Below are positions 42,517 to 47,175 of a stretch of DNA of 64,000 nucleotides, piece by piece. The translations under genes and the position numbers were made by a program. Numbering within the stretch: position 1 is the first letter of the stretch; each line of letters starts with the position of its first letter. The DNA is from Pontibacter korlensis (GTDB lineage Bacteria; Bacteroidota; Bacteroidia; Cytophagales; Hymenobacteraceae). A model generated the notes under the pieces. That model did no database searches and was not told where the DNA came from. It worked only from the letters and a program-made list of their open reading frames with translations. Location: NCBI RefSeq assembly GCF_000973725.1, contig NZ_CP009621.1, positions 1,369,501 to 1,433,500 on the forward strand. Reading direction: 5' to 3'.

Positions 42517-42825
42517 TTAACCAATGTTTTCGATAAGAACCTTGGTATACTGCTGGCGGTGGCCGCGAGACTTCTTATACCCTTTTCTTCTCTTCTTCTT
42601 GAAAACAAGCACTTTGTCAGCTTTAACGTCTCCTAGGATTTTGCCAGTTACCTTAACACCATCCACAAAAGGAGCGCCAACAGTGATTGTACCGTTGTCA
42701 TCAGTTAGAAGAACATTGGCGAACTCAACGGCGTCACCTTCATTGCCGGAAAGCTTGTTAGCGTAGATGAACTTACCGCTCTCTACTTTGGTCTGTTGAC
42801 CTGCGATTTCTACAATTGCGTACAT
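42517..42825 (-). CDS. rplU: Ribosomal protein bL21
   Basis: 102 residues from ATG 42825 (MYAIVEIAGQQTKVESGKFI), the canonical start; an in-frame extension to 42873 would overlap the promoter. The middle ANVLLTDDNGTITVGAPFVDGVKV and the basic end FKKKRRKGYKKSRGHRQQYTKV are diagnostic. It binds 23S rRNA. Leading gene of the L21-L27 unit, with a strong promoter 32 bases upstream. Confidence 0.98.
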   Translation of the reverse strand: MYAIVEIAGQQTKVESGKFIYANKLSGNEGDAVEFANVLLTDDNGTITVGAPFVDGVKVTGKILGDVKADKVLVFKKKRRKGYKKSRGHRQQYTKVLIENIG

Positions 42826-42856
42826 CAGCTTCAATGTATGTTTAAAGTTTAGTCCG

Positions 42857-42887
42857 CAAAAGTACGGCTTCATTTTGATATTTGCAA
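42857..42887 (-). promoter_or_regulatory. Bacteroidota-type promoter of rplU
   Basis: Minus strand TTG, exactly 20 bases, TACTTTTG; the -7 box ends 31 bases before the rplU ATG. Same elements and spacing as the initiator tRNA promoter. Confidence 0.8.
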
Positions 42888-43462
42888 CGGCTTGTATAAC
42901 AATTTGTTCTCACTTCATTTACCTTTCACAATACTGTGGAAAACTTTGTGCATAAACTCGTGTCATTTTTGGAAAACTCTCAAAACCCTGCATAAGATGT
43001 TTTGCAACAAGCAGTTGCAGCCAAAACTCCAAAACAAACTTTTCCACAAAAGTTGCCCAAAGCATGCCTGGCAGAGCCAAACAACCCCTTAACTACAGAC
43101 ACACACCTCTGTTTGCAACTGCAACACCCTCTCTTACACTATAATTACACAGCTCAAAGCAGCGCAAAATGCACTTAACACCGATTACATATAGCATTTA
43201 CAATATTTATCACTTTATATATAAGTGGATTGCAATGTGGATAACGGTGTGAATTACCACTAAAATCAGCCAAAACAGAGCGCTGAGTGGGTGTGCATAA
43301 ATTGAACAACTTTCGCCCCGCAAATCAAGTTCATTTCTATATATTTGAAGTCAGGATATAAGTAGTAAAACACCCATGGAGGCTGTAAACATTTCCTGAG
43401 CTCAAGAGGTTTTGATACTCATTATTAACCAAGACCCTTTAACTATATAAAATTACGTGATT
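42888..43462. other. AT-rich intergenic region with clustered DnaA boxes (candidate oriC or nrd control region)
   Basis: About 575 bases without a gene between divergent rplU-rpmA and nrdB. Three sites match TTATNCACA exactly (as TGTGNATAA on the plus strand): 42947-42955, 43236-43244, 43292-43300. Two more have one mismatch: 42935-42943 (TGTGGAAAA) and 43040-43048 (TTTTCCACA). A very AT-rich stretch (43185-43230) contains the near-palindrome CACTTTATATATAAGTG (43211-43227), which could be an unwinding element or an NrdR-type site. Both readings, replication origin and DnaA control of nrdBA, are inference. Confidence 0.5.
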
Positions 43463-44422
43463 ATGGAGCCAATACTGCAAGAGAACCCTAACCGCTTTGT
43501 ACTGTTCCCTATACAGCATGACGAGGTGTGGCAGATGTATAAGAAGGCAGAAGCCAGCTTTTGGACAGCCGAGGAAATTGACCTGGGCCAGGACCTGAAA
43601 GACTGGGAAAACCTGAACGACGGCGAGCGCCATTTCATTAGCCACGTACTGGCTTTCTTCGCTGCCTCCGACGGCATCGTGAACGAGAACCTGGCCGTGA
43701 ACTTCATGAATGAGGTACAGATACCAGAGGCTCGTTGCTTTTATGGTTTCCAAATCATGATGGAGAATATCCATGCAGAAACATACTCTCTCCTGATCGA
43801 CACTTATGTAAAGAAGCAGTCGGAGAAAGATTTCTTGTTTAACGCCCTGGATAACGTACCAGCCGTGAAGCGTAAAGGCGAATGGGCGCTTAAGTGGATT
43901 GAGAGCGAGAACTTTACCGAGCGTTTGATCGCCTTTGCAGCTGTAGAAGGCATTTTCTTCTCTGGCTCTTTCTGCTCTATCTTCTGGCTGAAGAAGCGCG
44001 GCCTTATGCCAGGCCTTACCTTCTCAAATGAGCTAATCTCCAGAGATGAAGGCCTGCACTGCGATTTTGCTTGCTTACTATACTCTATGCTGCAGAACAA
44101 ACTGCCAGAGGAGCGCGTGCACGATATTATTCGTGATGCGGTAAGTATAGAGCAGGAGTTCGTAACCGATGCGCTACCAGTAGACCTGATCGGCATGAAC
44201 GCTAAGCTGATGAGCCAGTACATCGAATTTGTGGCTGACCGCCTGTTAAGTGAGCTTGGTTATAGTAAGATCTATGGCTCCACAAATCCATTCGACTTTA
44301 TGGAAATGATCTCGCTGCAGGGCAAGACAAACTTCTTCGAAAAGCGTGTGGGCGAGTACCAGAAAGCTGGCGTACTGGGCGACAAAGACAAAAATGTTTT
44401 CTCGCTGGACGAAGACTTTTAA
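43463..44422 (+). CDS. nrdB: Ribonucleotide-diphosphate reductase beta subunit (class I)
   Basis: 319 residues from ATG 43463; a GTG two codons earlier is in frame but less likely. The diiron/dimetal carboxylates lie in [18 protein letters not shown], in [17 protein letters not shown] (ExxH), and in [21 protein letters not shown] (second ExxH). This subunit generates the radical passed to NrdA. The C-terminal acidic tail [12 protein letters not shown] should dock on NrdA. A hairpin (44438-44499) separates it from nrdA, 368 bases downstream. It is the first gene right of the DnaA-box region. Confidence 0.96.
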
Positions 44423-44790: not shown

Positions 44791-47175
44791 ATGTTAGTAG
44801 TTAAACGAGACGGCAGACGCGAATCCGTCAAATTCGACAAGATTACCGCACGCATTGAAAAGCTGTGCTATGGTTTACACATGGATTATGTGTCGCCGAT
44901 TGAGGTGGCTAAAAAGGTGATCGACGGCATCTACGATGGCGTGACCACCGTAGAGCTTGACAATCTGGCTGCCGAGACAGCTGCGTCGCTTACCACCAAA
45001 CATCCGGATTACGCGGTGCTGGCTGCACGTGTAGCTATCTCTAACCTGCACAAGGTTACGAGCAAGTCTTTCTCCAACACCATGAAGCGCCTGTATACTT
45101 ATACAGACCCTAAAACGGGAGAGAATGCATCGCTGATCGCCAAGGATGTATATGAGATCATCCGTAAGAATGCGGCCCTGCTCGACTCTACCATCATCTA
45201 CGACCGCGATTACAACTACGATTACTTCGGTTACAAAACACTGGAGCGCTCTTACCTCCTTCGCCTGGATGGCAAGATTGTGGAGCGCCCACAGCATATG
45301 TTAATGCGTGTGGCCGTGGGTATCCATAAGGAGGACATCGAATCTGCCATCGAGACTTATAATCTCATGTCAGAGAAATGGTTTACGCACGCCACGCCAA
45401 CATTATTTAACGCCGGCACGCCAAAACCACAGCTTTCTTCGTGCTTCCTGCTAACCATGCAGGACGACAGCATTCCGGGCATCTACGATACCCTGAAGCA
45501 GTGCGCGCAGATCTCGCAGAGCGCCGGCGGTATTGGCCTGAGCATCCACAATGTGCGTGCTACCGGTTCCTACATCAAAGGCACCAACGGTACTTCCAAC
45601 GGTATCATCCCAATGCTGAAGGTGTTTAACGACACAGCCCGCTATGTAGACCAGGGTGGTGGCAAGCGTAAAGGCGCTTTCGCTATTTACCTGGAGCCAT
45701 GGCATGCGGATATCTTTGACTTCCTGGAGCTGAAGAAGAACCATGGTAAGGAAGAAAACCGTGCCCGTGACTTGTTCTATGCCCTCTGGACACCAGACCT
45801 GTTCATGAAGCGCGTGGAAGAGAACGGCGACTGGAGCCTGTTCTGCCCGAACGAAGCACCAGGCCTGAGCGAGTGCTGGGGTAAAGACTTTGAGCGCCTG
45901 TACGAGAAGTATGAGCGTGAAGGCCGCGCCCGCAAAACAGTAAAAGCACAGGAACTGTGGTTCCACATACTGGAGTCTCAGATCGAGACGGGTACACCAT
46001 ACATGCTGTATAAGGACCACGCAAACCGCAAGTCTAACCAGCAGAACCTGGGCACCATCAAGTCTTCGAACCTGTGTACTGAGATTATGGAGTACACCAG
46101 CAAAGACGAAATTGCTGTATGTAACCTGGCATCTCTGGCACTGCCTCGCTTCGTGAAGGAAGATCAGAACGGTAACAAGACCTTCGACCACCAGAAGTTG
46201 TTTGATGTAACCTACCATGCAACTGTTAACCTGAACAAGGTTATCGATATAAACTACTACCCTGTACAGGAGGCCCAGAATTCTAACCTGCGCCACCGCC
46301 CAATTGGTTTGGGTGTACAAGGCCTGGCTGATACCTTTATTCACCTGCGCATGCCATTCGAAAGCGAAGAGGCAAAAGGCTTGAACAAGGATATCTTCGA
46401 GACCATCTACTTCGCTGCCATGACGGCTTCTAAAGACCTGGCGAAGAAGCAGGGACCATACGAGACATTTAAAGGTTCTCCACTTTCAGAGGGTAAATTC
46501 CAGTTCGACCTATGGGGCGTAACACCAGAGAGCGGCCGCTGGGATTGGGAAAGCCTGCGCCAGGACGTAGTGAAGCACGGTGTGCGTAACTCGCTGCTGG
46601 TAGCGCCTATGCCTACTGCCTCTACTGCACAGATTCTGGGTAACAACGAATCGTTTGAGCCTTATACCTCTAACATATACCTGCGCCGCGTACTGTCTGG
46701 CGAGTTCATGGTAGTGAACAAGCACCTGCTGCGTGACCTGATTGCGCTAGGTATCTGGAACGATAAGATGAAGAACGACATCATCGCGGCCAACGGTTCT
46801 GTTCAGGATATCCCGAACATCCCGCAGCACATCAAAGACCTGTACAAGACAGTATGGGAGATCAGCCAGCGTGCTGTAATTGATATGAGTGCTGACCGTG
46901 GTGCCTTTATCTGCCAGAGCCAGTCACTGAACCTGCACGTGCAGAACGTGAACTTCGGTAAGCTGACTTCGATGCACTTCCACGCCTGGAAGAAAGGCCT
47001 GAAAACAGGTATGTACTACCTGCGCACCAAGTCTGCTGTAGACGCGATTAAGTTTACGGTAGAGAAACAAGCCGCCGAAACCCTTTCGCCGGTATACAGC
47101 AACCAAGACCAGAACCGCAGCGACATGGCTTGCTCGCTAGACAACCCAGACGCTTGCGAAGCTTGCGGATCGTAA
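44791..47175 (+). CDS. nrdA: Ribonucleoside-diphosphate reductase alpha subunit (class I)
   Basis: 794 residues. The N-terminal ATP-cone (1-95, [24 protein letters not shown]) is the allosteric activity site, so dATP inhibition is expected. Catalytic core: [14 protein letters not shown] with the first redox Cys, [17 protein letters not shown], the active-site segment [12 protein letters not shown] (thiyl-radical Cys), and [19 protein letters not shown]. The C-terminus CEACGS carries the CxxC that relays electrons from thioredoxin. The terminator lies 10 bases after the stop. Codon choice looks biased toward major codons, as in highly expressed genes, and only one AAGTATA word occurs. Confidence 0.97.

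Follow-up and report, generated by a model that had tools for sequence, protein, structure and literature searches.

The window, that is, the whole 64,000-nucleotide stretch analysed here, spans bases 1,369,501-1,433,500 of the 5.46 Mb genome of Pontibacter korlensis, which is assembled as one contig. It contains a divergent gap of 637 bp (42826-43462 of the window), with rplU on the left and nrdB on the right. According to the gene calls, rplU, rpmA, metH and metF run leftward and nrdB and nrdA rightward. The nrdB gene (43463-44422, plus strand) encodes the small subunit (319 aa) of a class I ribonucleotide reductase (RNR), and nrdA (44791-47175, plus strand) encodes the large subunit (794 aa). 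The start of rplU is probably at 42825 rather than at the first ATG of the open reading frame (ORF) at 42873, because the L21 model begins at residue 18 of that ORF. The GC content of the gap is 37%, versus 48% for the window.

A putative promoter element of the TAnnTTTG type, which is established in Bacteroidota, can be assigned to each side of the gap. For rplU-rpmA, the candidate -7 element is TACTTTTG (42857-42864, minus strand); of 22 upstream regions from Hymenobacteraceae (loci among the best 80 of 591 relatives, plus the window), 14 contain GCAAAAGTA. For nrdB, the candidate -7 element is TATATTTG (43340-43347, plus strand), present in all 50 Pontibacter genomes compared. The gap also contains an AT-rich near-palindrome, CACTTTATATATAAGTG (43211-43227), of which the ATAT core alone is partly conserved in Pontibacter, and a conserved block, ATTGAACAACTTT (43301-43313, plus strand), which abuts the last of the boxes described below and is found as TTGAACAAC in 45/50 Pontibacter.

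The whole array of DnaA-type boxes lies inside this gap. A motif scan gives three exact matches to TTATNCACA, all on the minus strand: TTATGCACA at 42947-42955, proximal to rplU, TTATCCACA at 43236-43244, and TTATGCACA again at 43292-43300. Weak boxes with one mismatch are TTTTCCACA at 42935-42943 (minus strand) and at 43040-43048 (plus strand), and TAATTCACA at 43248-43256 (minus strand), which starts 12 bp after the start of the 43236 box. The original prediction had listed the three exact sites as sharing one orientation, the one-mismatch sites at 42935 and 43040, an AT-rich stretch with a TATATA near-palindrome beside them, and genes diverging from the site (rplU-rpmA-metH to the left, nrdB-nrdA to the right). 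All of these agree with the scan and the gene calls; the one-mismatch site at 43248 had been overlooked.

In the whole window there are 6 exact TTATNCACA sites, versus 2.57 +/- 1.66 in shuffled sequence (6 or more in 6 of 100 shuffles), and 58 sites if one mismatch is allowed, versus 59.4 expected. The excess therefore resides in the clustering of the sites and not in their number across the window. Markov-1 sequences modelled on 42874-43462 contain 0.057 exact sites on average, and none of 5000 reached three. Genome-wide, TTATSCACA occurs 97 times (49 + 48), compared with 24 + 26 for the reversed control. From 97 randomly placed sites, 0.002 triplets within 346 bp would be expected; three are found, in the nrdB gap, at 2012.5 kb before a gene for an ECF sigma factor, and at 5160.0 kb before mraZ.

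The second of these clusters (2012394-2012717) comprises seven DnaA-type boxes with at most one mismatch, and a very similar set of eight boxes precedes the gene for an 84%-identical ECF sigma factor in another Pontibacter. The third (5160039-5160085) lies before mraZ-rsmH in the dcw cluster and includes an exact TTATCCACA, as do all 30 genomes read of the 60 searched. A second TTATNCACA follows 9 bp on in 26/30 and an inverted copy lies near the gene in 22/30, with varying spacing. This stretch is rich in GTGG repeats, which resemble the boxes of MraZ itself. Since it may be MraZ's own site, DnaA control of mraZ was set aside and is not used here as evidence concerning DnaA.

Conservation of the array was assessed within the genus in the nrdB upstream regions of 50 Pontibacter genomes. 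All 50 have TTATNCACA in the 600 bp before nrdB, and 35/50 have it within 300 bp, a count that stays the same at 400 bp. On the minus strand, the place of the 43236 box (near -230 relative to nrdB) is occupied by TTATNCACA in 25/50 and by the looser TTATNMACA in 40/50; the corresponding counts for the 43292 box (near -173) are 33/50 and 43/50. A minus-strand TTATNCACA also lies between -560 and -500 in 33/50, and the box at 42947 is probably the counterpart of this box near -530 in the relatives. Plus-strand boxes occur in 10/50 between -560 and -500 and in 10/50 near -430. Both promoter boxes read TTATTAACA in 5 Pontibacter. Some other 9-mers equal or exceed the boxes in frequency among the 50 genomes, with TATATTTGA and ATATTTGAA at 50 each, TTATCCACA at 47 and AACAACTTT at 46, and 9-mers of the promoter (50/50) outnumber TTATCCACA (47/50).

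Five of the 50 Pontibacter, P. korlensis included, carry a second nrdB elsewhere in the genome. In the 700 bp upstream of each of these paralogues no exact site is found (0/5), and one one-mismatch site is present in 2/5. The P. korlensis copy (787684-788640) encodes a protein that is 91% identical, and there is no ORF of nrdA length within about 4.5 kb of it. Because kinship inflates the Pontibacter counts, this paralogue control and the Hymenobacter triplet described next carry the most weight.

Beyond the genus, the nrdB loci of relatives were drawn from the best 80 of 591, and consist of 22 Hymenobacteraceae loci, including the window, and 59 others. Among these, TTATCCACA is the most widespread 9-mer of the Hymenobacteraceae loci over the 600 bp preceding nrdB, and 18/22 contain it; in 30 Markov shuffles of the same 22 loci it averages 0.1, and the best shuffled 9-mer reaches 6. 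It is present in 10 of the 59 remaining loci (shuffle mean 0.2) and is not the commonest 9-mer there. In 12 of the 13 Hymenobacter loci among the best 80, three box-like 9-mers precede nrdB at fixed spacing. The first is TGTGGAYAA or a variant; at the middle position 7 loci have TTATCCACA, 3 have TTGTCCACA and 2 have a variant; the last is TGTGGATAA in 10 and a variant in 2. These boxes are mostly of the textbook DnaA type (TTATCCACA, TTGTCCACA) and stand in both orientations in GC-rich genomes. The DNA around the triplet is poorly conserved (mean column identity 43%), except for a downstream TATCTTTG/TATATTTG element.

The two latter boxes also permit a search by pattern. In 120 genomes of the family, TTATCCACA-N{5,9}-TGTGGATAA occurs at 31 places in 26 genomes, and its reversed control at none. 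Hymenobacter accounts for 28 of these places in 23/42 genomes, always with a spacing of N7: 19 are between rplU and nrdB, 6 are within an ORF, and 3 are intergenic, next to an inverted repeat of high GC content. The ORF with the N7 pair, from six Hymenobacter genomes, is 515-613 codons long from stop to stop, and is of the YjeF/carbohydrate-kinase type in the one scanned (L136). When TTATNCACA is counted within 400 bp of nrdB, the values for Pontibacter (35/50), Hymenobacter (11/13) and Chitinophaga (4/9) are equalled by 0 of 400 permuted patterns. Conserved boxes are found upstream of the RNR promoter in Hymenobacteraceae, and more weakly elsewhere.

Support becomes weaker outside Hymenobacteraceae, where the motif degenerates. 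The same count gives 5/20 for Pedobacter, reached by 4 of 400 permutations, 12/41 for a family designated f6, reached by 2, and 3/30 for other loci, reached by 13; with the looser pattern TTATNMACA, there are permutations that score as well in Pontibacter, Hymenobacter, Pedobacter and f6. Boxes stand at differing positions before nrdB in Adhaeribacter and Chitinophaga. In Pedobacter and a relative, a recurring TGTTAACAACT is located at about -150 to -315 before nrdB, often with TTATTAACA 109 bp upstream of it and in some cases with TGTGGATAA about 20 bp upstream; the full palindrome GTTGTTAACAAC is present in three Pedobacter-group loci (L097, L099, L106). We know of no regulator for this TGTTAACAACT element. 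The ATTGAACAACTTT block of P. korlensis is similar to blocks found at nrdB in Pedobacter and f6, namely AACAACT and AAAAACTT.

Family f6 is probably Flavobacteriaceae, judging from its low GC content and large size. It was represented by 41 genomes, 13 from a 148-genome phylum sample and 28 from 30 loci listed among the matches (43 of 60 family genomes matched). Exact TTATNCACA is found near nrdB in 12/41, that is, in 9/13 of the first sample but only 3/28 of the fresh one, and a rule placing TTATNCACA near -110 in this family, suggested by the former, failed in the latter as a general rule. That place is often occupied by TTATAAACA, and TGTKNATAA is present there in 23/41. A conserved module of the f6 nrdB promoter takes the form TTGTTAAAAAC..TTGTTGACAA-TGTTTATAAC, in some cases with TTGTGAATAAG or TTGTGGATAAC. 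With exact TTATNCACA limited to 12/41 here and TTATTAACA at both promoter boxes in 5 Pontibacter, the motif drifts from the textbook box.

A 12-bp tandem, TGTKRANAACTTTGTKRANAAC, occurs once each in 8/60 f6 genomes (reversed control, 1). It was derived from f6 nrdB promoters, and its four matches there are therefore by construction. The other four sites precede an RNR alpha-subunit gene, a divergent RNR beta-subunit gene and a 2OG-Fe(II) oxygenase gene, or lie within an ORF. In one f6 genome (G310), whose skew reaches its minimum near 228 kb, a 587-bp divergent gap lies 10 kb from that point, at 218.0-218.6 kb. This gap holds 6 TTATNMACA sites versus 0.10 expected and is the top window of 220 kb, with a motif chosen after the promoters had been seen. 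Its boxes include TTATTCACA and TTATAAACA, the usual f6 nrdB variants, as well as TTATTAACA. In this one genome, such sharing of variants favours DnaA as the reader of both this gap and the nrdB promoters.

The GC skew bears on the other half of the original prediction, which had proposed a chromosome origin at this site and had named a skew minimum near 43.1 kb of the window as the check. Instead, the sampled skew has a negative sign to the left and to the right of the site, and the cumulative curve bottoms out near 1.502 Mb, about 90 kb rightward, in continuous sequence from the window to 1.70 Mb minus 6.5 kb. In 20 sampled 20-kb stretches plus the window, the skew is positive at 1.68-3.66 Mb and negative over the arc that runs from 3.92 Mb across the zero coordinate to 1.46 Mb. 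The box array, at 1.4123-1.4130 Mb, is within the negative arm, and the dnaA gene is at 2.268 Mb, away from the array. Although the rplU-nrdB gap holds a cluster of DnaA boxes as an oriC does, its position (1.412 Mb) is not that of the cumulative minimum. In a second Pontibacter (G002), in which the skew is weak, the sign changes somewhere between 2.77 and 3.0 Mb, to the right of nrdB at 2.708 Mb; the skew of one Hymenobacter genome (G056) is too noisy to locate the origin.

A better origin candidate is the 1.4 kb gap at 1510683-1512123, flanked by transposase and Na/H exchanger genes, roughly 10 kb from the skew minimum and about 99 kb from the array. It contains six one-mismatch boxes, weaker ones by eye, and no exact site. 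The box kinds are those of the nrdB array, and the candidate has TAATCCACA, TTTTCCACA and TTATCCACG. The stretch upstream of the exchanger was read in 20 Pontibacter including P. korlensis (41 genomes searched), and in 20/20 the 1000 bp before the gene contain 3-11 sites (mean 6.1), counting those with one mismatch or none, versus 0.9 per kb in the window, AT content being uncorrected. A further candidate, judged by a simple score, is the gap that follows glyS at 1518.7 kb. The distance between nrdB and the exchanger is 78-132 kb (median 97 kb) in 33 of the 34 Pontibacter with both on one contig, the exception (G075) having them 350 kb apart on opposite strands; in 7/41 genomes they are on different contigs.

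The P. korlensis genome encodes a single, ordinary DnaA of 474 aa, with DnaA_N, Bac_DnaA and Bac_DnaA_C domains. Its DNA-binding domain is normal: domain IV matches PDB 1j1v (E 7e-18), and the full-length protein matches 8btg. These two entries are the E. coli and B. subtilis proteins. A search for NrdR gave no match in the P. korlensis genome, whereas 9/14 control genomes gave matches; of the two Bacteroidota genomes checked in all, the control Bacteroides ihuae likewise gave none. The TATATA near-palindrome was considered as an NrdR box and rejected, given the absence of an NrdR match and its own lack of conservation. With no NrdR match in the genome, the reading that assumes least is that DnaA controls nrdB.

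We consider it likely that the array is a cis-regulatory region of nrdB(A), in which DnaA controls nrdB transcription as it does that of nrdAB in the distantly related E. coli. DnaA would bind three boxes on the minus strand (43236, 43248 and 43292). They precede the TATATTTG element at 43340 by 40-104 bp, from where either an activator or a repressor can act, and binding would change nrdB transcription. Transcription of the reductase may then follow how much DnaA is present or which nucleotide it carries, by which dNTP supply would be kept in step with replication initiation. The rplU-proximal boxes at 42935 and 42947 may reinforce the array or act on rplU-rpmA. Of the two readings first offered, origin or DnaA control of nrd, it is the latter that conservation of the boxes at nrdB supports, while the former fell with the skew. 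If correct, this model would explain how dNTP supply is matched to replication in a genome without NrdR, by means of a compact promoter. A full-text search of open-licence papers did not find DnaA control of RNR in Bacteroidota.

A broader proposal is more tentative, and we would put it at somewhat less than an even chance: that DnaA is a standing transcriptional regulator of RNR across Bacteroidota, with boxes re-created in lineage-specific arrangements on RNR genes of different families. The Hymenobacter triplet, the f6 12-bp tandem, and the paired and single boxes of Pontibacter would be such arrangements. If this is true, a conserved link between initiator and dNTP supply would be far more ancient and widespread than E. 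coli alone suggests.

It may be instead that a dedicated RNR regulator, and not DnaA, reads these DnaA-box-like sites and stands in for NrdR. The missing NrdR match would accord with such a protein, as would the conserved ATTGAACAACTTT block beside the last box, the TTATTAACA form of both promoter boxes in 5 Pontibacter, and the fact that two of the four TGTKRANAACTTTGTKRANAAC sites away from nrdB precede RNR alpha- and divergent beta-subunit genes. Nevertheless, the Hymenobacter sites are mostly textbook DnaA boxes in both orientations, and similar variants are found in origin candidates; we regard this explanation as unlikely. Less probable still is that the array chiefly titrates DnaA, holding it near the origin and limiting re-initiation, with control of nrdB secondary. 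The steady distance from the origin candidate in 33/34 Pontibacter and the existence of another box cluster at 2012.5 kb would fit titration, but the boxes are few, and they occur at the nrdB promoter in other genera too, the origin distance being established for Pontibacter only.

That the sites are a chance cluster, kept by descent without function in close relatives, seems very improbable. Pontibacter gaps are indeed related, and other parts of them align as well, yet the Hymenobacter triplet persists within poorly conserved DNA, the boxes of Adhaeribacter and Chitinophaga are placed differently, and the paralogous nrdB genes lack an exact site. A chromosome origin, for all that the box cluster, AT-rich gap and divergent genes recommend it, is hardly credible and was rejected, both on the skew minimum about 90 kb off, together with the position of nrdB left of the weak sign change in G002, and on the existence of a better, box-rich gap near the skew switch in 20/20 Pontibacter. 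A tempting false origin call is thereby corrected, and a better candidate for the Pontibacter origin supplied.

With DnaA control of nrdB as the preferred reading, the region can be set beside systems already described. Like oriC, it has a box cluster in an AT-rich divergent gap; unlike oriC, it is off the skew minimum, near which a gap rich in weaker boxes stands instead. E. coli datA and the DnaA-box clusters of B. subtilis are DnaA titration sites. The array resembles them in that its DnaA boxes are clustered and, within Pontibacter, keep a steady distance from the origin candidate, but differs in its association with the nrdB promoter in several genera. NrdR boxes are control sites of RNR promoters, and the setting at an RNR promoter and the TATATA near-palindrome are reminiscent of them, although no NrdR match is found in the genome and the near-palindrome is not conserved. 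The studies of Goranov and of Hottes, both from 2005, reportedly concern RNR genes in B. subtilis and Caulobacter.

The best-known case of DnaA acting on ribonucleotide reductase is that of E. coli. There, DnaA binds three boxes at nrdAB and can activate or repress it according to its amount and nucleotide state, as described in PMC8203912, which on RNR genes also refers to Goranov 2005 and Hottes 2005. Pontibacter departs from E. coli nrdAB in the gene order nrdB-nrdA, in divergence from rplU, in the putative TAnnTTTG-type element and in the lack of an NrdR match. As in E. coli nrdAB, several DnaA-type 9-mers lie upstream of a class I RNR operon, and the nrdB control region is probably a new instance of this type of DnaA control.
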